Both the position numbers and the translations under genes were made by a program. The notes beneath the pieces were generated by a model. It was not told the DNA's origin and ran no database searches. It was given only the letters and a program-made list of their open reading frames with translations. From Serratia oryzae (lineage in GTDB: Bacteria; Pseudomonadota; Gammaproteobacteria; Enterobacterales; Enterobacteriaceae), in the NCBI RefSeq assembly GCF_001976145.1, contig NZ_MOXD01000001.1:434001-498000 (forward strand): a DNA stretch of 64,000 nucleotides, written 5' to 3'. This document shows, one piece after another, positions 10,305 to 54,612 of this stretch. The first letter of the stretch is position 1. Each line of letters begins with the position of its first letter.

Positions 10305-10549
10305 TCGCTTTTTTGACCCTGTTTGTCTAATTTTTAACTACTTAACCGGGCCTAGATGCAGACCCACCCCTATCTTTTATCGTCGGTAAAAACTAGCATA
10401 CTTCGTTTCGTGGAGGCACTCACATTATCACAAACTCACGGCAACAGAAGCGCCAGCGGCAAAACGTGCGCTTGGCTGTGAAAGTTGCCCGAAATGCTCC
10501 ATGATAACAAGGGATAGAAGATTTCACTGAATAGGATGAAAACGCATTC

Positions 10550-11650
10550 ATGACACAACCGCAACGCCACTATGACTTACCCACGATTATTTTTGGCGTG
10601 TTGTTTATTGCCATTATGATCGTCGCCAGTTTTTGGGTGGTTCAACCGTTTATTCTTGGCTTTGCCTGGGCTGGCATGGTGGTGATAGCAACCTGGCCGG
10701 TATTGATTAAAGTACAGCGCCTGCTGTGGGGCCGCCGCTCGCTGGCCGTCCTGATCATGACCATTCTGCTGATCCTGCTGTTTGTGCTGCCTATTTCGCT
10801 GCTGGTCAGCAGCGTTGTCGATAACAGCGCCCCCATCGTCTCCTGGGTGAATTCACCGGGTAAGGTCAGCATTCCCGATCTGGAGTGGTTACGCGCCATC
10901 CCGCTGATCGGCGACCGGGTGTATAACAGCTACCACCTGCTGGTGAGCACCGGCGGAACTGCGCTGATCGCCAAAGTGCAGCCTTACTTCGGCCAGACGG
11001 CAACCTGGTTTGTCACGCAGGCTGCGCATATTGGCCGCTTTCTGGTGCACTGTATGCTGATGGTGCTGTTTAGCGCCTTACTGTACGCACGCGGAGAACA
11101 AGTCGGGCTGGCTATCCGGCATTTTGCGGTGCGCCTAGGGGCCGAACGTGGCGATGCTGCCGTGCTGCTGGCCGGGCAAGCGATTCGTGCCGTAGCGTTA
11201 GGCGTGGTAGTAACGGCTCTGGTGCAATCGGTGCTGGGGGGGATTGGTCTGGCCGTTGCTGGCATTCCTGCCGCTACGCTGCTGACCGTGCTGATGTTTG
11301 TGTTCTGCGTGGCGCAGTTGGGGCCATTGCTGATCCTGATCCCAGCGATTATCTGGCTGTACTGGACCGGAGAAACCACCTGGGGCACCGTATTACTGAT
11401 CTGGAGCTGCGTGGTGGGCACCTTGGACAACTTCCTGCGCCCGGCGCTGATCCGCATGGGGGCCGATCTGCCATTGATTTTGATCTTATCCGGTGTCATC
11501 GGCGGCCTGCTGGCATTTGGTATGATTGGGCTGTTTATCGGCCCGGTGGTGCTGGCGGTTTCTTACCGTTTAGTCAGTGCCTGGGTTAATGAAGCACCGC
11601 AACCCAATCGCGATATAAAAGAAGTGGTCAAAGATTTAGAACAACTGTAA
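10550..11650 (+). CDS. ydiK: AI-2E family membrane protein YdiK
   Basis: A 366-residue polytopic inner-membrane protein of the AI-2E/PerM transporter family. Hydrophobic segments occur near residues 15-50, 60-85, 155-175, 205-275 and 290-345. The substrate of YdiK is unknown; other family members export autoinducer-2 or act as Na+/H+ exchangers. It is divergent from ydiJ over 245 bases and directly upstream of rprA, as in E. coli. The ATG at 10550 gives the family N-terminus; its ribosome site is weak. Confidence 0.88.
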   Translation: MTQPQRHYDLPTIIFGVLFIAIMIVASFWVVQPFILGFAWAGMVVIATWPVLIKVQRLLWGRRSLAVLIMTILLILLFVLPISLLVSSVVDNSAPIVSWVNSPGKVSIPDLEWLRAIPLIGDRVYNSYHLLVSTGGTALIAKVQPYFGQTATWFVTQAAHIGRFLVHCMLMVLFSALLYARGEQVGLAIRHFAVRLGAERGDAAVLLAGQAIRAVALGVVVTALVQSVLGGIGLAVAGIPAATLLTVLMFVFCVAQLGPLLILIPAIIWLYWTGETTWGTVLLIWSCVVGTLDNFLRPALIRMGADLPLILILSGVIGGLLAFGMIGLFIGPVVLAVSYRLVSAWVNEAPQPNRDIKEVVKDLEQL

Positions 11651-11657
11651 TCTCCCC

Positions 11658-11681
11658 GGCCTGCCCGACCACAGGCAGGCC
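11658..11681 (+). terminator. ydiK terminator hairpin
   Basis: An 8-bp perfect stem (GGCCTGCC / GGCAGGCC) starts 7 bases after the ydiK stop. No strong T-run follows, so termination strength is uncertain. Confidence 0.55.
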
Positions 11682-11794
11682 ATCAATCCCATTATTGCTG
11701 TTTACTCCCCCTGCCACACATGACTCTTTATGCCTCGGCACAAAAAAGTTGCACTCGGGGATATTGCCAGCCGTTTTTATTCCCCGGGTTTTAT

Positions 11795-11808
11795 TAGGAT
11801 GAATCTTA
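11795..11808. promoter_or_regulatory. Candidate RcsB box of rprA
   Basis: The reverse strand reads TAAGATTCATCCTA, matching 11 of 14 positions of the RcsAB-box consensus TAAGAATATTCCTA. It is centred about 50 bases upstream of the inferred rprA start. E. coli rprA is activated by RcsB from a similar position. Confidence 0.6.
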
Positions 11809-11850
11809 ATGACGCCTACAGCCTAAGTGCTTAGTCTTATTACTCTATTT

Positions 11851-11953
11851 GGTACAAAACCTTAGCTTCTCCATCACGTATCAAATCGATCATCCCATGT
11901 ATATAAATTGCTGTGTGTAGTCTTTGCCCGTCACCTTCGATGGGCCTTTTTTT
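11851..11953 (+). ncRNA. rprA: Small regulatory RNA RprA
   Basis: The 3' half, AATTGCTGTGTGTAGTCTTTG at 11906-11926 followed by a GCCCGTC/GATGGGC hairpin and a T7 run, is nearly identical to E. coli RprA as I remember it. The place between ydiK and the following transporter gene is also the E. coli position. RprA is an Hfq-dependent activator of rpoS translation under Rcs control. The 5' end (about 11851) is set by the known length of roughly 105 nt and by a -10-like TACTCT just upstream. The 5' half is diverged from E. coli. Confidence 0.85.
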
Positions 11954-11992
11954 ATCCTTTTCACGTGCCGGGTACCCGGCATTGTTCCAGGA

Positions 11993-13324
11993 TTATTCAA
12001 CCGTAACGGGTTTTACTGCCGGGAGAGGTTGGCTTGTGACGCGATGCTTTAGCACATAACAGGCGACGATGCCAAAACATGCCATCACTACGGTATAGCC
12101 AAAATAAAGCTGATAACCGGTTTTCTGATCGGGGGCATAATCCATAATATAGCCATTAATCAGTGGGATAAAGATATCTGGGCAATAACCCACCGCAGAA
12201 ATCACCCCGATTGCCAGGCCGAGCTTGGTTTCCGGCACCTTCAGGTTCTCGATAATCGCCCAGTATAGGCCGCGTACTGCATAAGTCAGCAGGCCGACAA
12301 AGAGAATAAAGAAAACACAGAATCCAACCACCACACCGGAAGGCAAATGAGTTGCCGGGATAGCGATCAGGCCGACCAGGCCAAGCGCACTTAGCATTAA
12401 CGCGTAGGTTAATACCTTGATATTCCCTAACTTGTCACCCAGGAAACCACCGACTACCCCCCCGACCGGCCGCAACCATAGTTTGATCGTGGTGATCGTC
12501 CCTGCCATCACGGCAGTAAATCCCCAACCGCCGGCCTGCAAATAGCCTGAAAAGCTGTAGGTAGACCAGAATAAGTGGTAACCAGAAGAGATGATAATTG
12601 CGATCAACCACACCTCGGGCTGGCGCAGGATAAAACCCAGATCCTTAATCACGTTTTTATTGGTGGTTTTAGCCCGCTTTTCTTCTGTCTCATGTGGAGC
12701 GTTGGCTTCAAACCAGATACAGACAAAGCAGACCACGGCTAAGGCTATGCAGAACCAAGAGTACAGGTGAATCACGTAGACCAGCCCCTGAACCACGTTT
12801 GCGTCATTCGGGCCAACCGTTACCGAGAAAATAAACAGCGCAATGCTGGCCAGGATCGATTCAACCAGGCCGCGACCGCCATCGTAAATCCCGTAAAAGC
12901 GCCCAGCCTCATTTTTTGCCGCCAGCAGCTTGATGCGCTTCATCACCGCCCCCCAGAAGGTCAAGCCGGTAGTGATTCCCCAGCCTGAAAAAATGATTAA
13001 CAGTGCGGTATAGGAAGGCAAGGTACTGTACCAAAGCCCTAACAGGCCCGTCCCCAATAGAGACAGGGTGATCAGCTTCATCGGTTTCACTCTATCGGCT
13101 AACCAACCGCTGGGTGTATAGCAGATAAAAAACAAAAACCCCATGATTGAATACAACTCACCGAGTTGCACATTAGTAATATTAAAAGCTTGGATCATCG
13201 TATCCTGATAAATCTGCCTCAAATATAGCATCGGATATATTGCACCGCCGGCGATGGTCAGCAGTAATATCTGTATATATCGAGTGCTATTTTTAACTTG
13301 CTCTGTCTTTACTCTATTTTCCAT
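11993..13324 (-). CDS. MFS transporter of the accessory catabolic island
   Basis: A roughly 443-residue major facilitator transporter with about twelve hydrophobic segments. It shows the loop 2-3 motif GWLADRVKPMK near residues 74-84. Its general look is that of the OPA/YihN branch, but the substrate cannot be read from the sequence. It is the last gene of the SDR-oxidase-kinase-MFS set, separated from the kinase by an ERIC element. The start at 13324 (MENRVKTEQ) is the likely one; an ATG at 13333 is also possible, with the AGG site lying between 1 and 10 bases from the two. Confidence 0.8.
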   Translation of the reverse strand: MENRVKTEQVKNSTRYIQILLLTIAGGAIYPMLYLRQIYQDTMIQAFNITNVQLGELYSIMGFLFFICYTPSGWLADRVKPMKLITLSLLGTGLLGLWYSTLPSYTALLIIFSGWGITTGLTFWGAVMKRIKLLAAKNEAGRFYGIYDGGRGLVESILASIALFIFSVTVGPNDANVVQGLVYVIHLYSWFCIALAVVCFVCIWFEANAPHETEEKRAKTTNKNVIKDLGFILRQPEVWLIAIIISSGYHLFWSTYSFSGYLQAGGWGFTAVMAGTITTIKLWLRPVGGVVGGFLGDKLGNIKVLTYALMLSALGLVGLIAIPATHLPSGVVVGFCVFFILFVGLLTYAVRGLYWAIIENLKVPETKLGLAIGVISAVGYCPDIFIPLINGYIMDYAPDQKTGYQLYFGYTVVMACFGIVACYVLKHRVTSQPLPAVKPVTVE

Positions 13325-13454
13325 AATAGTCATACCTGTGTGATATCGTTTACCCTCTTTTATCCAAGCGGCACGGCGGCGCAAACCAGATGTTTATTTA
13401 ACTTCTGGGTGCACTACCGGAAGATTTGCTGGAATAGACCGGAGAGATTTTTTA

Positions 13455-13581
13455 TATACCCTTCATACTTCAAGTTGCTTGGGTGTTGGCTGCCTTTACT
13501 CACCCCAGTCACTTACTTGAGTAAGCTCCTGGGGCTTCGCTCAGTTGCCGCCTACAAGCAACTCGAATTATTTTTGGTATA
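13455..13581. repeat. ERIC element (intergenic repeat unit), 127 bp
   Basis: The core carries CACCCCAGTCACTTACTT and GTAAGCTCCTGGGG, the conserved ERIC sequences used for ERIC-PCR. The ends are the usual imperfect inverted repeats (TATACCCTTCATACTTCAAG... and ...CTCGAATTATTTTTGGTATA). The length of 127 bp is standard. It lies between the kinase and the MFS gene of one transcription unit, and its right end supplies the kinase stop codon and last residues. Confidence 0.92.
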
Positions 13582-15018
13582 TTTTGATGGTCTATTAAGA
13601 AAATCATAGACCTCTGACAACAGTGGATCTGTATAACTACGTACTTTCATATAGACGTTTTTATTAATGCCATCATAATAAATATGATTTTTTTGATTAG
13701 GGATATACTTTTTCTTAATCTGCACCATATCTCTTTTTGCCTGGTTAAAATCCTGTACCACCCCTAATCCAACGGCAGTACACATAGCCGCACCCAGGCA
13801 GGCTGAACTGTTGGCTTGCAGGGTATAGGTCTCTTTACCAAAGAGATCGCAGATAATCTGCACTAAAACATCGCTTTTTGCCCCGCCGCCAATAATCCGG
13901 ATGCTATTGATGGAGGATGCTGTTTCCTGCAGCATGGCATCAATATTGTTCTTTATCGTGTAGGCAATAGCTTCCAAAATAGAGCGATAAATATGGTACT
14001 TAGTATGGCGCTGATCAAAACCGAACATCATCCCCTTACGGAATTGATGGCTTGGCGGGCTCAGCCAATCAAGAATAGTAATCAACCCTTCTGAACCCGG
14101 GGCAATGGATTCGGCAATACGGTTTAATACATCTTCTTCACTGATGTTTTCCATCTCAGCAATCTTGCTGATATCTTCACCCGCTAAATGTTTAAACCAA
14201 CTCACCGTCCACATACCCCGCCGGATCCCGGTAGATTCATAGACATATTTGAAAGGTTCACACGCCAGCGTCGGGAAAAAACTCTCGGCATGGGAGAAAT
14301 AATCATGGCGGTACAGCATGGCCGAAATAAATGTCCCCAGCGAGATCATAATTTCATCAGCGGCGGTAATGCCCGCGCCAAGCACTTCAACAGCCTTGTC
14401 ATTACCGGTAGCAAATACGCAAATATCCGCATTCAGACCAAAACGCTCGGCGAGTTCTGCCCTGAGCGGCCCGTAGCTCTCGCCGGGTTTGATCAGCTCA
14501 AACAGTTGGCTGCGCGTGAGCCCCTGGCGCTGGATCTCAGCATCATCTGCCCATTGCAGGGTCTGCCAATCCATAGGCCAATAAACTTCCTGATTGGAAC
14601 AACTGTCTTTGAAAGCGCCGGTTAAGCGTAAACCAAGATAACCGGACGTGGTGGTCACATATTTTACCGCGTCATTCTGATGAACATAGGGCTGCGACAT
14701 ACGCATATCCATCCAACTGATGACCGGTTCAACCAGTTCACCCTTCTCATCCAGCAGCACCCTGCAACAGCGAATAGTACACAACCCTATTCCCAGGATC
14801 TGACGCCGATCGCCGGTAAATTTATCCAGGCAATCTTCTATGGCGCGAACCAGGCTCTCCCAGAGATCTTCTCCGGGATGGTAAACAACGCCCGGTGCCG
14901 GTGTTTCTGTATTCTGCAATAAATCACTGCCATAACAGATTTCATTACCCTGTTGGTCAAAAATACCTACCTTGGTACTTTGCGATCCACTATCAATACC
15001 CATAAATAGTTTTTTCAT
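13552..15018 (-). CDS. FGGY-family carbohydrate kinase
   Basis: A 488-residue kinase of the ribulokinase/xylulokinase/glycerol kinase superfamily. It has the N-terminal ATPase motif MGIDSGSQSTK (6-16), the FGGY catalytic aspartate Asp207 in GNDKAVEVLGAG, and the C-terminal adenosine-site IIGGGAKSDVLVQI. It should phosphorylate a sugar or polyol brought in by the neighbouring transporter. The substrate is not deducible; it is not a close match to GlpK, XylB or AraB by eye. The final nine codons and the stop lie inside an ERIC element, so the native C-terminus was replaced or extended by that insertion. Confidence 0.85.
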   Translation of the reverse strand: MKKLFMGIDSGSQSTKVGIFDQQGNEICYGSDLLQNTETPAPGVVYHPGEDLWESLVRAIEDCLDKFTGDRRQILGIGLCTIRCCRVLLDEKGELVEPVISWMDMRMSQPYVHQNDAVKYVTTTSGYLGLRLTGAFKDSCSNQEVYWPMDWQTLQWADDAEIQRQGLTRSQLFELIKPGESYGPLRAELAERFGLNADICVFATGNDKAVEVLGAGITAADEIMISLGTFISAMLYRHDYFSHAESFFPTLACEPFKYVYESTGIRRGMWTVSWFKHLAGEDISKIAEMENISEEDVLNRIAESIAPGSEGLITILDWLSPPSHQFRKGMMFGFDQRHTKYHIYRSILEAIAYTIKNNIDAMLQETASSINSIRIIGGGAKSDVLVQIICDLFGKETYTLQANSSACLGAAMCTAVGLGVVQDFNQAKRDMVQIKKKYIPNQKNHIYYDGINKNVYMKVRSYTDPLLSEVYDFLNRPSKYTKNNSSCL

Positions 15019-15079
15019 TATTCACTTCCATTATTCTTGATATCTATAGTGGGGATAGAGTGACTTATCCCTTTAGCCT

Positions 15080-15106
15080 GAGTTGCAGCCTTATTGACCG
15101 CAACTC
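15080..15106. repeat. Hairpin between oxidase and kinase genes
   Basis: A 7-bp perfect inverted repeat (GAGTTGC / GCAACTC) with a 13-base loop sits in the 148-base gap between the oxidase stop and the kinase start. The arms resemble the ERIC ends (CGAGTTGC), so it may be an ERIC remnant. No T-run follows on the minus strand. Confidence 0.4.
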
Positions 15107-15166
15107 GAAGCTCTTAGGATATTACACCGACCGCTCCCGTTCCCCTTGGGGATTGATCCGTGAAGG

Positions 15167-16639
15167 TTACTCGAAGAAATGCTCAGTGCCTGGCTGCGGA
15201 TAAATACAGCCGAAATTCATGATACCTTTCGGATCATAAACCTGTTTCAGCCCTTGCAGAATATAATAGGCGCTGCCATGCTCCTGCTCGGTCCATTCAT
15301 TTCGATATTTACCAATGCCGTGATGGTGACACATTGAACCACCCAGTTTCAGCGTCTCTTCCACAATAATGCGCTGAATAGGATGGTGATAAATACGCAT
15401 TTCATCTTTCGCTTCGCAGTGGATATTGTAGTTATAAACAAAGTACATATTGGTACCGTTAATATAACTGTGCGATGAGTGCCCACCCAGCATGGTGAGA
15501 TCTTCACTGCGTTCAAATTCACTGCGAATACGCTGGATCACGCGATCGTAGATTTTCGGGATCATTTCCCAACTTGCAGAGATCTCGGTAGTGAAACCAT
15601 CATGACGATTATGATTCACCATCTCGCTCACTTCTTGCTCGATGCGCGCCTGCGACCAGTTGAGATGATTGAACCAGTCTTCGATCAGCTGGCTTTTAAC
15701 CGGTTTCAGGATCCCCGCAGCATGTTCCTTGATGATTTCGTTGATGCCATCAATGGTGGCATTCACAATGCCGGAAGGCCCTTCCACCATAAAGATCAGA
15801 ACACACTTGCCTTCGTGGAAGGCCGAGAAATGCTGCGCCGCATCCTCTTCTGAATAAACCCGCGCCACCGAAGGGCGGTAACCTGCCACCATGACGTCAC
15901 GCAGGATCTTGATACCTGAGGCAACATCCTTGATTAAGTGCCCGATAAACCGGTTATTCTCCGGGTAGAACTTGAACAGTTTCACCGTGACTTCGGTGAT
16001 AAAACACAGGGTACCTTCGTTACCAATCACCACATGGCGGATGTCCGGGCCGCCGGCGCGGCGTGCGACACTCTTGATACGTGAAATGTGCCCATCAGGG
16101 AAGACACACTCCAGGCCAAGTACCATATCCTCAATTCCACCGTACAGGGTAGAAAACTGGCCGATACTGCGCGTGGCCACTAAGCCACCATATTGTGCAA
16201 CCGGCTTGGACTGCGGCGAATGGCCGGTTGTCAGCCCCTGTTTGCGCGCTTCATCTTCCAGCGTTTGCAGGCAAACCCCGGCTTGCACCGTGGCTTCCAT
16301 ATTGTAGCTGTCGATCTTGATGATTTTATTCAGGCGTGCCGAGTCAATCACCAGGGTATTTTCTTTCCAGTTTTCCAAGCCACCTTCGGTCGCCGTCTTG
16401 CCGCTGCGTGGAATAACGTTAATGGCATTTTCATTACAGAATTTGAGTATCTCAGCCACTTCATCGGCACTTTCTGGCAGCACAATGGCGGTAGGGAGAG
16501 GAACATTAAGCTGCTCTTTGGCCTTAGCATATTTTTTATATCTGTCGGCTGCTGCATCATAGAGCTTGGCATGATCGGTCACGATCTGATCCGCTTTCAA
16601 TAGGCTATGCAATTGCTTTAATGTGTCATGCTTATTCAT
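15167..16639 (-). CDS. FAD-binding oxidase, alkyl-DHAP synthase-like
   Basis: A 490-residue VAO/PCMH-type flavoprotein. The N-terminal FAD domain (about residues 50-230) includes PRSGKTATEGG. The C-terminal cap domain ends with HHHGIGK (438-444), the triple-histidine active-site motif of alkyldihydroxyacetonephosphate synthases, and a YDPKGIMNFG tail. AGPS makes ether-lipid precursors, but bacterial relatives have many unknown substrates, so the specific reaction is open. The ATG at 16639 has an AAGGG site; an ATG five codons upstream lacks one. It lies between an SDR gene (21-base gap) and the kinase. Confidence 0.82.
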   Translation of the reverse strand: MNKHDTLKQLHSLLKADQIVTDHAKLYDAAADRYKKYAKAKEQLNVPLPTAIVLPESADEVAEILKFCNENAINVIPRSGKTATEGGLENWKENTLVIDSARLNKIIKIDSYNMEATVQAGVCLQTLEDEARKQGLTTGHSPQSKPVAQYGGLVATRSIGQFSTLYGGIEDMVLGLECVFPDGHISRIKSVARRAGGPDIRHVVIGNEGTLCFITEVTVKLFKFYPENNRFIGHLIKDVASGIKILRDVMVAGYRPSVARVYSEEDAAQHFSAFHEGKCVLIFMVEGPSGIVNATIDGINEIIKEHAAGILKPVKSQLIEDWFNHLNWSQARIEQEVSEMVNHNRHDGFTTEISASWEMIPKIYDRVIQRIRSEFERSEDLTMLGGHSSHSYINGTNMYFVYNYNIHCEAKDEMRIYHHPIQRIIVEETLKLGGSMCHHHGIGKYRNEWTEQEHGSAYYILQGLKQVYDPKGIMNFGCIYPQPGTEHFFE

Positions 16640-16660
16640 ATTTACCCTTATCATTATCGA

Positions 16661-17446
16661 TTAACGCACTAAAAAACCACCGTCGACAGCTATCACTGAG
16701 CCGTTAACATAATTGGATGCATCTGAGGCCAAAAAGACTGCCGTCCCCATCAGATCGGCAATATTTCCCCAACGATTGGCCGCAATATGCGAAAGTACCC
16801 GCTTATTAGCATCAGGATCTGAGCGTGTTTTTTCGGTTAATGGCGTTGCATAATATCCAGGCGCAATCGCGGTGACCTGAATATTGAATTGTGCCAATTC
16901 GTCGCAGTAGGCTTTCGTCAGCCCAACAATCCCGTGCTTACTCGCCGAATACGCCGGTGACCATTGCCCGCCCAAATAAGAGAACATGGAAGCGATATTG
17001 ATGATCTTCCCACTCCGCTGCGGGATCATGTATTTGGCCACTTCGTGCGACATTTCAAAGGCGGCGCTCAGATTGAGGGCGATCATTTTATCCCACTGCA
17101 CGCGGGTGAATTTGAGAACATCCGGTTCGTTAATGCACATCCCAGCATTGTTGACCAGTATATCGATGCGCCCAAAACGAGCTGCTACCTGATCTATTGC
17201 CTGTTGGGGTTCCCCTTCACGGGTAATGTCCGCCAGAATAAAGTGATAATCCACCCCGCACTCTTCTACCAGACGCCGGGTTTCCCCTTCGTCGTCCGCA
17301 ATGGCGATAACGGCGACATTAGCCCCAGCTTTGGCAAACGCCAGACTGTATGCCTGGCCCAGCCCGCTGTTGCCCCCCGTGACGATCGCTGTTCTTCCTT
17401 TTAGAGAGAACAGGTTCAAACTGAAGTCTGTGATTTTTTCCAACAT
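16661..17446 (-). CDS. SDR-family dehydrogenase (KduD-like)
   Basis: A 261-residue classical short-chain dehydrogenase. It has the cofactor motif TGGNSGLG (23-30), NNAG (99-102), the catalytic Ser153, Tyr166 and Lys170 (YSASK), and the PGYYATPLT loop. It resembles 2-deoxy-D-gluconate and sugar-alcohol dehydrogenases and probably oxidises or reduces a sugar hydroxyl with NAD(P). It is the first gene of the minus-strand set. The start at 17446 has an AGGA site 7 bases upstream; a longer frame would begin with non-conserved residues. Confidence 0.85.
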   Translation of the reverse strand: MLEKITDFSLNLFSLKGRTAIVTGGNSGLGQAYSLAFAKAGANVAVIAIADDEGETRRLVEECGVDYHFILADITREGEPQQAIDQVAARFGRIDILVNNAGMCINEPDVLKFTRVQWDKMIALNLSAAFEMSHEVAKYMIPQRSGKIINIASMFSYLGGQWSPAYSASKHGIVGLTKAYCDELAQFNIQVTAIAPGYYATPLTEKTRSDPDANKRVLSHIAANRWGNIADLMGTAVFLASDASNYVNGSVIAVDGGFLVR

Positions 17447-17516
17447 GAGCGTTTCCTGATAATTTTTTAACGTTTCACTTTCATCACCTCTAACTCTGGA
17501 CAACATTTATACCGAT

Positions 17517-17560
17517 AATTTTCCATAAAAACATGCTTTAGATCCAATTTATGGAAAATT
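17517..17560. promoter_or_regulatory. Candidate operator: 13-bp perfect inverted repeat
   Basis: AATTTTCCATAAA at 17517-17529 and its exact reverse complement at 17548-17560 are spaced 31 bp centre to centre, about three helical turns. It lies 70-115 bases upstream of the SDR start, between the divergent regulator and catabolic genes, so it is the best candidate for the RpiR-type regulator's binding site. Confidence 0.6.
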
Positions 17561-17669
17561 AACGCAACAACATTTATTAATTCTTTATAAAAAGATAAAA
17601 TTGACATTATTTTTATTTATAATGCTAATTTATGGTTTTTAAAACTTAATAACTTTATTTTATCAGAAC

Positions 17670-17691
17670 ATAATTCTGATGTTGGAATTAT
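17670..17691. promoter_or_regulatory. Second inverted repeat upstream of the regulator gene
   Basis: ATAATTC and GAATTAT form a perfect 7-bp inverted repeat with an 8-base spacer, 117 bases before the regulator ATG. A TTGACA at about 17591 could be part of a plus-strand promoter. A role in autoregulation is inference. Confidence 0.35.
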
Positions 17692-17807
17692 AAATACGGA
17701 GCGATCTTGCCAAGATGGTTATCTCTTCAGCAAGTGGGGTACTCATTGGGAGGTTTTTCTCGTAACATTGAACGAGGATGCTCTGGGCCTAACATCGGAA
17801 ATAAATC

Positions 17808-18524
17808 ATGATAAAAATTGATTACAATGGTTTGAATGCGTTGGAAAAGAAACTATTAGACAGCACTAAAGAATGCATTCAACATAATTCAACGGTTTCT
17901 ATTACTGAGCTTAGCGCACAGTTTGATGTTTCAACGTCGAAAATATCCAAGTTTGTCAGAAAACTGGGGTTTGAATCTTTCAAACAATATAAAAAATATA
18001 TTATCAGCGAACATAATGACACCTCCCCAGAAAAACCATCAAGTGAATTACAGCGTATAGCAGATTACATCGCCAATTTTGATGATCGCCTTGCTCATGA
18101 TTTTTGGTTAAAGATAAAAGATTGCAATAAGCTGATTATCTATGGGTTAGGCCCCTCTTACATTTGCGCTGATTACTTCGCCTATCGCCTGCGGATCTTT
18201 TCTGATGTATTTACGCTAGCCACCAATGAAGTCACAACCGTCAGAAACTCTGACAGTAAGGACACTAAACTCCTGGTGCTATCAACGACCGGATTATTCA
18301 AATCCTTTGATGAAGACCTCTCCGGTTTAAATTACAAAGAGATTATCTTTTTATTTGAAGAGTTCCGTTATTTCCCTAAACTACAGCAAAACACGCTTTT
18401 TTATCTTACCAATAGCGGTGGCAACAGCAAGCTGAAGCCTTATGAAAAATCGCGGACGTTGTTTTTTATTTTCTTGGAAGAAGTGATACAAAAGTTCATG
18501 CCAAATAGTAAACCCGGTGAATGA
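17808..18524 (+). CDS. MurR/RpiR-family transcriptional regulator
   Basis: A 238-residue protein with an N-terminal HTH_6 domain (TELSAQFDVSTSKISKFVRK, about residues 31-50) and a C-terminal SIS sugar-phosphate-binding domain (YGLGPSYICADYFAYRL, LLVLSTTGLFKSF). It is somewhat shorter than the usual 280 residues. Family members sense a phosphorylated sugar, which fits control of the divergent dehydrogenase-oxidase-kinase-transporter genes. Its coding sequence is clearly more AT-rich than that of flanking core genes, suggesting acquisition. A GGAA site lies 7 bases before the ATG. Confidence 0.85.
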   Translation: MIKIDYNGLNALEKKLLDSTKECIQHNSTVSITELSAQFDVSTSKISKFVRKLGFESFKQYKKYIISEHNDTSPEKPSSELQRIADYIANFDDRLAHDFWLKIKDCNKLIIYGLGPSYICADYFAYRLRIFSDVFTLATNEVTTVRNSDSKDTKLLVLSTTGLFKSFDEDLSGLNYKEIIFLFEEFRYFPKLQQNTLFYLTNSGGNSKLKPYEKSRTLFFIFLEEVIQKFMPNSKPGE

Positions 18525-18530
18525 AATGCT

Positions 18531-18664
18531 TATACCCAAAATAATTCGAGTTGCTTGACAAAAACGCAATGCGTTTTTGAACAGCGCTTGCCCCTAAGAG
18601 ACTCGGCCCTGACTTGGGCCGAGTAACGCAGAACACCCAGGCAACTTGAAGTATGAAGGGCATA
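18531..18664. repeat. 134-bp repeat with ERIC-like ends and an unrelated core
   Basis: The ends (TATACCCAAAATAATTCGAG... and ...TTGAAGTATGAAGGGCATA) match the ends of the ERIC element at 13455-13581 in inverted order. The core is different. It contains a near-perfect palindrome (AAAAACGCAATGCGTTTTT) and a 9-bp stem (ACTCGGCCC / GGGCCGAGT). It lies between the convergent regulator and ppsA genes and may act as a bidirectional terminator. Confidence 0.75.
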
Positions 18665-18686
18665 GGGGCACCTAGTGGCGCCCCTA
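18663..18686. terminator. Hairpin 3' of ppsA
   Basis: TAGGGGC and GCCCCTA form a 7-bp stem extended by CC/GG after one mismatch. It abuts the repeat at 18531-18664 and precedes the ppsA stop at 18697. It has no T-run but is well placed to end ppsA transcripts. Confidence 0.45.
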
Positions 18687-18696
18687 GAGAGAAGAG

Positions 18697-21075
18697 TTAC
18701 TTTTTCTGCGCCAGATTCATCCAGGTTTGCACCACGGTATCCGGGTTAAGTGACAGGCTGTCGATTCCCTGCTCCATCAGCCACTTGGCCAAATCCTCAT
18801 GATCCGATGGGCCTTGGCCGCAAATCCCCACGTACTTGCCATGACGTTTGGCAGCTTGGATCGCCATGGTCAGCAGCATTTTGACCGCTTCGTTGCGTTC
18901 ATCGAACAGCTCAGAAACCACGCCGGAATCGCGATCCAGCCCCAAAGTCAGCTGCGTCATGTCGTTGGAGCCAATCGAGAAGCCGTCGAAATATTCCAGG
19001 AACTGATCGGCTAACAAGGCATTGGAAGGGATCTCGCACATCATAATCACTTTCAGCCCGTTCTCACCGCGCTTGAGCCCCTGACGCGCCAGCTCCTCTA
19101 CCACCGCCTCAGCCTGTGCCACGGTGCGCACAAACGGCACCATAACCTCAACGTTGGTCAGCCCCATGTCATTACGCACCCGCTTCATCGCTTCACACTC
19201 CATGGCGAAGCAGTCACGGAAACTTTCGGCAACGTAACGGCCAGCCCCACGGAAGCCCAGCATCGGGTTCTCTTCATGTGGTTCGTACTTCTCGCCGCCC
19301 ACTAAGTTGGCGTATTCATTGGATTTGAAGTCGGAAAGACGCACGATAACGCGCTTAGGCCAGAATGCCGCACCCAGCGTCGCGATCCCTTCGGTTAAAC
19401 GACCAACATAGAACTCGACCGGATCGTCGTAACCTTGCATCAGCGCCCTGATTTCGGCTTGCAGTTCTGGCGGCTGCTGGTCAAATTCCAACAACGCGCG
19501 CGGGTGCACGCCAATCATGCGGTTAATGATAAATTCCAAACGCGCCAGACCTACCCCTTCATTCGGCAGACGGGCAAAATCGAAGGCTCGATCCGGGTTG
19601 CCCACGTTCATCATGATCTTCAGCGGGAGCTCTGGCAGTTCGGTGACTTCAGAACTTTGTACGCTGAAGTCCAGCATATCGCTGTAAACAAAACCGGTAT
19701 CACCCTCGGCACAGGAGACCGTGACTTTCTGCCCATCCTTCAGCAGATCGGTGGCATGCCCACAGCCAACCACCGCTGGGATCCCCAGTTCACGGGCGAT
19801 GATCGCCGCGTGACAGGTTCGGCCGCCACGGTTGGTGACAATTGCGGCCGCCTTTTTCATGATCGGTTCCCAGTCCGGGTCGGTCATGTCAGTCACCAGC
19901 ACATCCCCTGGCTGAATGCGATCCATTTCGCTGATGTCGTTAATCACTTTCACCGGGCCTGCGCCAATGCGGTGCCCGATGGCGCGCCCTTCCACCAGCA
20001 CGGCGCTATTGCCGTTCAACTGGTAGCGCTCCATCACCTGCTCATTGGAACGCACGGTTTCCGGGCGCGCCTGCACAATCAATAGCTTGCCGGTGTGCCC
20101 ATCTTTTGCCCACTCGATGTCCATCGGGCGACCATAATGCTTTTCGATCAGTAAAGCCTGGTGCGCCAACGCCTGCACTTCATCATCACTCAGAGAGAAA
20201 CGATTGCGCTGCGCTTCTGGCACATCTTCAATCCGAACCTGTTTGCCGTGATCCTGCGAGGGCGCGTACACCATGCGGATTTTCTTCGACCCCAGATTAC
20301 GCCGCACAATGGCAGGTTTGCCTTTCAGCAGCGTCGGCTTGTGCACGTAGAATTCGTCCGGGTTGACCGCCCCCTGCACAACCATTTCACCCAGACCAAA
20401 TGCCGAAGTGATAAACACCACCTGATCGAAACCAGACTCGGTATCAATGGTGAACATGACTCCTGACGAAGCCAGATCGGAACGCACCATGCGCTGCACA
20501 CCGGCAGACAACGCCACGCCGCGATGATCGTACCCTTGATGCACCCGGTAGGAGATCGCACGATCGTTGAACAACGAAGCAAATACGTGCTTGATCGCCA
20601 CCATCACGGCCTCAATGCCCTGCACATTGAGGAAAGTTTCCTGTTGGCCAGCAAAGGAGGCATCCGGCATATCCTCTGCCGTGGCGGAAGAACGCACGGC
20701 GAAAGAGGCATTACTTTCACCGCCAGCCAGTTGCTGATAGGCCAACGTGATTTCACGTTCAAATTCTGCATGGAAAGGTGTGTCGATCACCCATTGGCGA
20801 ATTTGCGCACCGGCCTTGGCCAGTTGAGCAACGTCGTCAACATCGGTTTGATCCAGTAACTGATAGATGCGCTGATTAACACCGCTTTGCTCAAGAAAAT
20901 CATTGAACGCCTGTGCGGTGGTAGCAAAACCGTTCGGCACGGCTACACCTAAATCGGAAAGATTGGTGATCATTTCACCGAGGGAGGCGTTTTTACCCCC
21001 AACACGGTCAACGTCGTGCATGCCAAGCTGGTTGTACCAAAGCACATTACGCAAGTCTGGGCCATTGTTAGACAT
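18697..21075 (-). CDS. ppsA: Phosphoenolpyruvate synthase PpsA
   Basis: A 792-residue enzyme that converts pyruvate and ATP to PEP, AMP and phosphate in gluconeogenesis. The N-terminal ATP-binding domain is followed by the swivelling phosphohistidine domain with [15 protein letters not shown] (phosphorylated His near 421). The C-terminal PEP/pyruvate domain ends with the catalytic GICGQGPSD cysteine. Length equals E. coli PpsA. It is divergent from its regulator ppsR. A Cra site lies upstream. Confidence 0.98.
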
Positions 21076-21587
21076 CGAGACAATCCTTATTGCTATCAGT
21101 AGGGTCTAAGCGAATTTAATTCGGTAAGCGAAGCGAAATCAGACTAGCACAATGACCCAAAGAAAATGGAAAGGTGAATCGATCAACCCAATGAAAAAAA
21201 TGAATTTTAAGAGAAAGACGCAGCGGCATAATTTTAATGGGGATCGTTCCCTTAAACACTAACAAACTGATATTAAACAAATTAAGTAAGATTTTAAATT
21301 TCGATTAAATACACACTCTCAAACGGGCTGAATTTGACGGAAATAACCTGTTCGGCGTGATAAAATTGTTTAAAATTAGGCGCAACAGTTTTATAAAAAA
21401 TAAAATTGCGTTTTATAATAACGCGTAATCCGCTATTTACTCACCTTGCCTGATTAAAATATGACTTTATTTATCGCGATTGCTCGTGTTATCACAAATT
21501 TCTGACCCGGCGCTTTACCCGCCAATCATTCACAGACCATGATATTTTGCTACAACAGGATTATCGTTTTCAGCGAGAGAGTGACGA
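21076..21587. other. ppsA-ppsR divergent intergenic region
   Basis: A 512-base AT-rich region without an ORF. It holds the Cra site listed separately and the promoters of both genes; no further sites could be assigned. Confidence 0.5.
21173..21186. promoter_or_regulatory. Cra (FruR) operator upstream of ppsA
   Basis: GGTGAATCGATCAA matches every position of the Cra consensus RSTGAAWCSNTHHW. It lies about 100 bases upstream of the ppsA start. E. coli ppsA is activated by Cra from an equivalent site. Confidence 0.75.
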
Positions 21588-54459: not shown

Positions 54460-54519
54460 ATGATTAAGCAAACTTCTCTTCTTCGTTGGTGGCGTACCTC
54501 CCTTTCACGGGCGGAGTAA
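54460..54519 (+). CDS. trpL: trp operon leader peptide TrpL
   Basis: A 19-residue leader with tandem tryptophans at positions 10-11 (RWWRT). It senses charged tRNA-Trp in transcription attenuation of the downstream trpEGDCBA. Too short for standard gene finders. An AAGAGAG-like site precedes the ATG. The attenuator follows at 54556-54582. Confidence 0.9.
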   Translation: MIKQTSLLRWWRTSLSRAE

Positions 54520-54555
54520 TCACGCATACCTGTCATCTGACACTGCAGATTCCCT

Positions 54556-54582
54556 AAGCCCGCTAGTTACGCGGGCTTTTTT
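54556..54582 (+). terminator. trp attenuator terminator
   Basis: AAGCCCGC and GCGGGCTT form an 8-bp stem with a 7-base loop, then a T-run. It is the classic attenuator 3:4 hairpin, 36 bases downstream of trpL and 30 before trpE. Confidence 0.88.
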
Positions 54583-54612
54583 ACGGAAAAAATTTAACTG
54601 GAACTACCGATG

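Follow-up and report, generated by a model that had tools for sequence, protein, structure and literature searches.

In Serratia oryzae, five genes lie between rprA and ppsA in a stretch of 64,000 nucleotides (contig NZ_MOXD01000001.1, positions 434,001 to 498,000 of the forward strand), which is referred to as the window. They encode an RpiR-type regulator, a short-chain dehydrogenase/reductase (SDR), a flavoprotein resembling alkylglycerone-phosphate synthase (AGPS), an FGGY kinase and a major facilitator superfamily (MFS) transporter. The cassette belongs to a widespread but uncharacterised set of genes, that of the ygcW-ygcU-ygcE type; it is a complete, regulated and mobile example, organised like a catabolic operon. 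The substrate of the wider family is probably a quaternary-ammonium compound. Mainly from gene neighbours in other bacteria, we infer a full model in which the cassette serves glyceryl-ether catabolism, the substrate being a trimethylammonium acid joined to glycerol by an ether and, in the most specific form, glyceryl-3-O-(N,N,N-trimethylhomoserine). We consider this model, including what the substrate is, which step follows which and in which direction the flavoprotein works, a real possibility that falls a little short of an even chance.

A flavoprotein scan of named genomes retrieved 141 relatives, and the best 80 loci (69–97% identity) were read. Several of these loci end at contig edges, so linkage counts are lower bounds that lean to close relatives and are uncorrected for kinship. 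The five cassette genes are co-conserved: the flavoprotein gene was accompanied by an RpiR-type regulator in 74 loci, an SDR in 69, an FGGY kinase in 67 and an MFS transporter in 59. An earlier note on this DNA, made from the letters and their translations, had suggested searching for co-occurring homologues, which these loci supply. Subunits of the electron transfer flavoprotein (ETF) were encoded alongside, ETF-beta in 55 loci and ETF-alpha in 53; ETF genes overall were counted in 58. The enzyme trio ranges from Enterobacterales to Clostridia, Enterococcus, spirochaetes, sulfate reducers and Flavobacterium. A gene for a SurE-family phosphatase, the family being confirmed for one representative, lies downstream in 10 of the 80 loci (L063, L071, L072, L084, L091, L095, L103, L116, L119 and L124).

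YgcW, YgcU, YgcE and YqcE of E. coli resemble the SDR (63% identity), flavoprotein (54%), kinase (41%) and MFS transporter (27%) of the cassette, and ygcW, ygcU and ygcE are clustered in the queD–queE region as their homologues are in the cassette. However, the ygc cluster of E. coli strain 104 adds ETF genes (ygcQR), ygcNO (annotated as FAD-dependent oxidoreductase and ferredoxin family protein), a YgcP antiterminator-like gene and a second MFS gene; it has no RpiR gene, occupies another chromosomal place and encodes a flavoprotein from a clade separate from that of the window. Open reading frames and Pfam placed neither ETF genes, ygcNO nor the YgcP antiterminator among the cassette genes. 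The earlier note had been unable to match this mix of genes to anything described; the ygcW-ygcU-ygcE-yqcE set does match it, yet has no described function in the papers found. RefSeq annotates the E. coli ygc genes by family only, and titles and abstracts found in the open-licence PMC literature gave no function for ygcW, ygcU or ygcE, the papers dealing with promoters, regulator sites and strain comparisons. Megablast of the cassette against E. coli produced no match. Short-word blastn gave some match in 5375 of 5426 E. coli genomes with a query that also held kinase and repeat DNA; among the ten best E. coli records listed, all have ygcU and ygcW under the match.

The five genes form an acquired, laterally spread unit, because they are missing from this place in all six congeners compared, lie elsewhere in Serratia sp. 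Ag1 and occur together in Cedecea and Thorsellia. When window positions 10401–21200 were aligned to the six congeners by blastn, ydiK and ppsA were adjacent and the cassette absent in every one, and in four of the six the 3' part of rprA also aligned in between; homology stops at about 11955 and restarts at 18697 to 18721. Two of seven genomes of the genus (the window genome and Serratia sp. Ag1) carry the window-type cassette, three an E. coli-like flavoprotein version (57–58%) and two neither version. In Serratia sp. Ag1 the cassette is on contig C23 and the ydiK–ppsA pair on C14; its flavoprotein is 97% identical to that of the window and its cassette proteins overall 89–98%. An uncultured Cedecea assembly and Thorsellia anophelis each have the same five genes side by side, and the MFS transporter is 92% identical in Serratia sp. 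Ag1, 75% in Cedecea and 71% in Thorsellia. In a quick tree of the flavoproteins, built from 92 of 100 rows (leaving out L032 and L033, which are copies of L050 and L052, and distant rows of L044–L049), the window, Ag1, Cedecea and Thorsellia sequences form one clade (support 100) beside Aeromonas and Flavobacterium rows (85–90), while the enterobacterial ygcU sequences make up a separate clade (100). Thorsellia is presumably of mosquito origin. The flavoproteins of Serratia sp. Ag1, T. anophelis and the uncultured Cedecea are 82–97% identical to that of the window. PMC10484321 gives the gut of Anopheles gambiae as the source of Serratia sp. Ag1. These similarities hint that the cassette may have spread among insect-gut bacteria.

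The gap between the SDR and regulator genes contains an operator-like inverted repeat with arms TTTTCCATAAA and TTTATGGAAAA and a spacer of 18 bases. Similar inverted repeats are present in Serratia sp. Ag1 and Cedecea, with spacers of 16 and 17 bases. The pattern TTTCCA-N18..34-TGGAAA was observed 5' of the first gene in 12 of the 80 loci against 0.12 expected, and at six places in the other 1.44 Mb; a looser form was found in 21 loci against 0.66 expected. A second operator was not detected in the window genome, where the strict pattern, with no mismatches allowed, matched at the cassette only. The regulator has an HTH_6 domain (PF01418, 37 bits against a cut-off of 28), and its second half gave no Pfam SIS match. 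Its structure model (predicted TM-score 0.62) resembles the SIS regulators NanR, RccR and MurR (best E 3e-11 at 14% identity; core TM up to 0.64 by target length). The model suggests a second half that is SIS-like and of the sugar-phosphate type.

Quaternary-ammonium transporters are encoded in 38 of the 80 loci: an OpuAC-type (OpuC) binding protein in 22, a BCCT transporter in 16 and both in none, with representatives of the two families confirmed by Pfam. From the 93 BCCT matches in 50 genomes, fragments included, 0.46 would be expected in the loci; BCCT genes were observed in nine loci. The binding protein of the enterococcal locus L102 is close to OpuCC-type structures (E 6e-89), which are glycine betaine-, carnitine- and choline-binding proteins. 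TRAP-like transporter genes, read by eye, lie near L096, L098 and L127.

Further neighbours point to what such a substrate might become. In the Bacillales, Mesobacillus foraminis (L082) and its relatives keep the gene order RpiR, SDR, FAD, kinase, as in the window, and carry genes for an AspA-like lyase, an aldehyde dehydrogenase (ALDH) and a zinc alcohol dehydrogenase (ADH) that adjoin the cassette or lie elsewhere in the genome. The best NCBIfam family for the L082 ALDH is betaine-aldehyde dehydrogenase. Module families were scanned for L082; those of its relatives were read by eye or by lyase similarity. In Aeromonas cavernicola (L108), genes for a lyase and an ALDH adjoin the cassette. When 193 genomes of a single family were scanned, six contained the lyase (E ≤ 1e-130) and eight the flavoprotein (E ≤ 1e-100). 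All six lyase genomes were among these eight, and the flavoprotein occurred in two of the other 187 (Fisher p 4e-10, uncorrected for kinship); in some genomes the lyase scan scored 8 of up to 15 first-look candidates, and a lyase could be missed there. Divergent to the lyase-ALDH-ADH trio stands an IclR-looking regulator gene (by eye) in L157, L158, L173, L174 and L176; it accompanies the trio even when the flavoprotein cassette lies elsewhere, and was not seen in L159.

The lyase belongs to the family of the aspartate ammonia-lyases AspA and AspB, and all ten sequences aligned keep S140, T141, T187, K324, N326 and the catalytic S318; for Thr101, Ser140 and Thr141 we assume the AspB roles and numbering. 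Unlike AspA and AspB, all ten have isoleucine in place of T101 and serine (alanine in one) in place of N142, as well as cysteine at position 188, where AspA and AspB have histidine or glutamine. In nine control rows, position 101 is threonine in eight and position 142 asparagine in nine. The L082 lyase scores below the AspA equivalog cut-off (442 against 681). A plain aspartase was considered and rejected, as the tree separates the lyase from nine AspA, FumC and related rows (100/99), with L108 and L163 on long branches. According to PMC11744663, the alpha-carboxylate pocket of AspB comprises Thr187, Met321, Lys324 and Asn326, Ser318 is catalytic, and His188 and Asn142 interact with the amine. 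The substitutions suggest a dicarboxylate site minus its amine contacts, which is what N,N,N-trimethylaspartate would need.

By sequence, the nearest solved relatives of the flavoprotein are AGPS enzymes (153 bits; next family 110), and Foldseek of its model also places AGPS (PDB 4bby and 2uuu) on top (E 1e-28). In the alignment, R265 corresponds to R419 of AGPS, T355 to S527, Y404 to Y578 and H443–H445 to H615–H617. R265 and Y404 are each kept in 100 of 100 rows and H443, H444 and H445 in 100, 98 and 100, counting all 100 rows; PDB titles list AGPS mutants at R419 and Y578. Unlike AGPS, the flavoprotein is shorter, is only about 22% identical to it and stands in a bacterial, catabolic-type context. 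It also resembles the LctBCD-type lactate dehydrogenase/EtfAB complex (PDB 7qh2; fold Z 30.3), and EtfB and EtfA genes lie near the flavoprotein gene in most relatives. However, it has an HHH motif where the lactate dehydrogenase type has a one-histidine motif, which we take to be that of GlcD too, and its score against the GlcD glycolate oxidase family TIGR00387 is far below the equivalog cut-off (160 bits against 568).

No ETF match (PF01012) was found in the window genome, nor in the other three of the four enterobacterial cassette genomes (Serratia sp. Ag1, Cedecea and Thorsellia). Because ETF is absent from all four, we infer that the flavoprotein can act without it, as AGPS does. This is in keeping with a redox-neutral substitution of the AGPS kind; alternatively, oxygen could be the electron acceptor. 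Fourteen other genomes tested, whose cassettes lack linked ETF genes, have ETF genes elsewhere. A Bacillales relative (G303) has two flavoprotein copies in one genome, 92 and 91% identical to that of L082.

The kinase keeps R83 in 83 of 83 rows, C84 in 80, C85 and R86 in 81 each, and D207 and K208 in 83 each. Around residues 110–122 it is about 34–39 residues shorter than XylB and GlpK, and this shortening could leave room for a substituted glycerol. It falls below the NCBIfam equivalog cut-offs for XylB (TIGR01312, 182 against 380) and GlpK (TIGR01311, 102 against 590), and the SDR below that for KduD (TIGR01832, 272 against 339).

Read backwards through the ALDH and ADH, the putative lyase substrate leads to N,N,N-trimethylhomoserine. 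In nature this compound occurs ether-linked to glycerol in the betaine lipid diacylglyceryl trimethylhomoserine (DGTS); betaine lipids occur in algae and fungi. The DGTS head-group model is preferred because the quaternary-ammonium transporters, the AGPS residues and the ADH/ALDH/lyase module fit together. In this model, the MFS transporter (BCCT, OpuC or TRAP in relatives) would import the deacylated head group of DGTS, the SDR would oxidise the glycerol C2 hydroxyl to a ketone and the FGGY kinase would phosphorylate the free primary hydroxyl, giving an analogue of alkyl-dihydroxyacetone phosphate (alkyl-DHAP). The flavoprotein would then use the AGPS substitution to cleave the ether, water acting as the nucleophile, and so give DHAP and trimethylhomoserine; phosphorylation may come either before or after this cleavage. 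The SIS-like regulator would sense the phosphorylated intermediate and then free the operator. Where the extra module is present, ADH and ALDH would convert trimethylhomoserine to aspartate betaine, which the AspA-like lyase would split into fumarate and trimethylamine. The window genome, which lacks the lyase, would use the triose only or pass the betaine on. PMC10132767 treats DGTS as a lipid that is produced under phosphate starvation. No paper on such a head-group or glyceryl-ether catabolic pathway was found in the open-licence PMC literature. A still broader claim is tentative and somewhat doubtful: that these genes form the core of a new DGTS head-group pathway, with an ether-cleaving AGPS-like flavoprotein yielding DHAP for glycolysis and, in some bacteria, a new aspartase-like lyase that releases trimethylamine from aspartate betaine, so that the E. 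coli ygc genes would belong to glyceryl-ether catabolism.

Several observations weigh against the DGTS model. The chemistry it proposes derives from what lies near the cassette in other bacteria and not from the window, whose closest kin (L050, L051 and L052) have no OpuAC or BCCT gene nearby. The special lyase subfamily (at least 57% identity) was detected in five of 50 cassette genomes tested, these being 50 of the 80. It was not found in the window genome, where the best matches are AspA-like (40%) and FumC-like (35%), and the Aeromonas L108 lyase is a long branch with 37% identity to that of L082. Within the lyase, cysteine at position 188 is not special, because two of the nine control rows also have it (the others have histidine in four and glutamine in three), and Met321 of the alpha-carboxylate pocket is replaced by phenylalanine in nine of ten. 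PMC11744663 also assigns His188 and Asn142 to the carboxylate pocket. As for the flavoprotein, VIA-align gave practically a tie between D-lactate dehydrogenases (Z 32) and AGPS (Z 30), and a fold search as arbiter does not separate the two. The alignment offers no clear counterpart of AGPS Arg515, which we take to be a substrate contact, and the substrate of the flavoprotein step may therefore not be phosphorylated. The strongest point in favour of a dehydrogenase is the presence of ETF genes in 58 loci, which speaks for genuine dehydrogenation in the organisms concerned.

A rival reading, close to the scheme of the earlier note, is ordinary catabolism of a polyol, sugar acid or hydroxyacid with no ether involved. 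Here the flavoprotein would be a dehydrogenase with ETF, quinone or oxygen as its electron acceptor, the SDR would perform a second oxidation and the kinase would trap the product. The frequent ETF genes, ygcQR and ygcNO near ygcU in E. coli, a KduD-like SDR and the fold tie with D-lactate dehydrogenase and LctD of the Ldh–EtfAB complex all agree with such a route. The 18 tested genomes without cassette-linked ETF, moreover, belong to aerobic or facultative genera, in which oxygen could accept the electrons. Nevertheless, we judge it unlikely, as it leaves unexplained the BCCT and OpuC transporters of the 38 loci, the AspA-like lyase with altered amine contacts, the kept AGPS residues, HHH included, and the lack of an ETF match in all four enterobacterial cassette genomes. 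The import, oxidation and phosphorylation scheme of the earlier note stands in part: the unit does look catabolic and acquired, with a regulator of the sugar-phosphate type, but the scheme does not account for the quaternary-ammonium transporters or the aspartase-like lyase module.

Transporter linkage and an ALDH like betaine-aldehyde dehydrogenase point to trimethylammonium compounds generally, and the substrate might be another of these. Examples would be the head group of a different betaine lipid, a conjugate of choline or carnitine, or a sugar acid with a trimethylammonio group; the TRAP-like genes would suit an acidic substrate. Of the compounds considered, however, homoserine betaine alone would give, via ADH and ALDH, a substituted succinate for AspA-type cleavage to fumarate, and we regard this alternative as rather improbable. 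That the cassette is an ether-lipid synthesis module whose flavoprotein makes alkyl-DHAP like AGPS would agree with the conserved AGPS residues, but the cassette has the layout of a catabolic operon, with its MFS transporter, kinase and RpiR-type regulator, and Pfam recognised no acyltransferase or fatty-alcohol enzyme among the five proteins; we give this idea very little credence. It is just as hard to credit a decaying or irrelevant island. The cassette is AT-rich and variable in the genus (two of seven genomes) and has internal repeats, but its five frames are open, its proteins are 89–98% identical to those of Serratia sp. Ag1 and its operator-like repeat is conserved.

The features of the locus are listed below.

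Features of the cassette and its surroundings, in window positions
Feature	Position	Strand	Basis or remark
MFS transporter	11993-13384	-	PF07690; predicted substrate importer; start probably near 13324
FGGY kinase, YgcE-related (41%)	13552-15018	-	PF00370/PF02782
AGPS-like flavoprotein (FAD_binding_4/FAD-oxidase_C), YgcU-related (54%)	15167-16654	-	Pfam and alignment to AGPS
SDR oxidoreductase, YgcW-related (63%), KduD-like	16661-17506	-	Pfam; start probably near 17446
Operator-like inverted repeat CGATAATTTTCCATAAA - 18 bases - TTTATGGAAAATTAACG	17513-17564	.	Predicted site of the RpiR-type regulator
RpiR/MurR-type regulator, putative diverged SIS-like half	17808-18524	+, divergent to operon	PF01418, structure model
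Whole acquired cassette, GC 46%	11956-18696	.	Congeners have no matching DNA at this place
RprA small RNA, left neighbour	11846-11955	+	RF00034; insertion begins past its 3' end
ppsA, right neighbour	18697-21075
MITE-like dispersed repeat, copy 1, between MFS and kinase	13455-13581	.
MITE-like dispersed repeat, copy 2, right end of cassette	18531-18664	.	Inverted relative to copy 1

All five cassette reading frames are open and intact, and Pfam backs the families that the earlier note had assigned to them. The same note rightly saw other genes at this place in E. coli: in K-12, rprA and ppsA are separated by ydiL to fadK. The genes at this place (K-12 region 1770372–1787112) include ydiQRST, whose annotations are ETF subunits, an ETF-quinone oxidoreductase and a ferredoxin-like protein. 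It had called the regulator and kinase AT-richer than the core, which is borne out by GC contents of 37.1% and 45.9% against 56.7% in ydiK, 55.4% in ppsA and 57.7% in ydiJ; the MFS and flavoprotein genes have 48.8% each and the SDR gene 50.8%. The AT-richness of the regulator is equalled by 1.7% of the 717-bp stretches in the window. The right end that had been proposed, 18664, takes in the dispersed repeat, and homology to congeners resumes slightly beyond it. This repeat (about 130 bp, with inverted ends) has 46 matching pieces in the window genome, where 40 of 205 first-look candidates were scored; copy 1 reaches into the 3' end of the kinase gene, whose last codons it provides. The probable SDR start follows the Serratia sp. 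Ag1 frame of 261 amino acids. RprA scored 64.2 bits (E 3e-8), just below the Rfam gathering score of 70, and is not listed by an Rfam scan of the window at gathering scores. The sole match above gathering score in the window is the trp operon leader (RF00513) at 54481–54584.

The cassette is ordinary as a further member of an orphan set named from E. coli, and unusual in that evidence from its relatives converges on one testable compound. The orphan cluster is now tied to a test with a named compound. If the substrate prediction is true, it would explain how bacteria recycle the head group of a betaine lipid, give a catabolic role to the chemistry of an ether-lipid synthase and reveal a new microbial source of trimethylamine.

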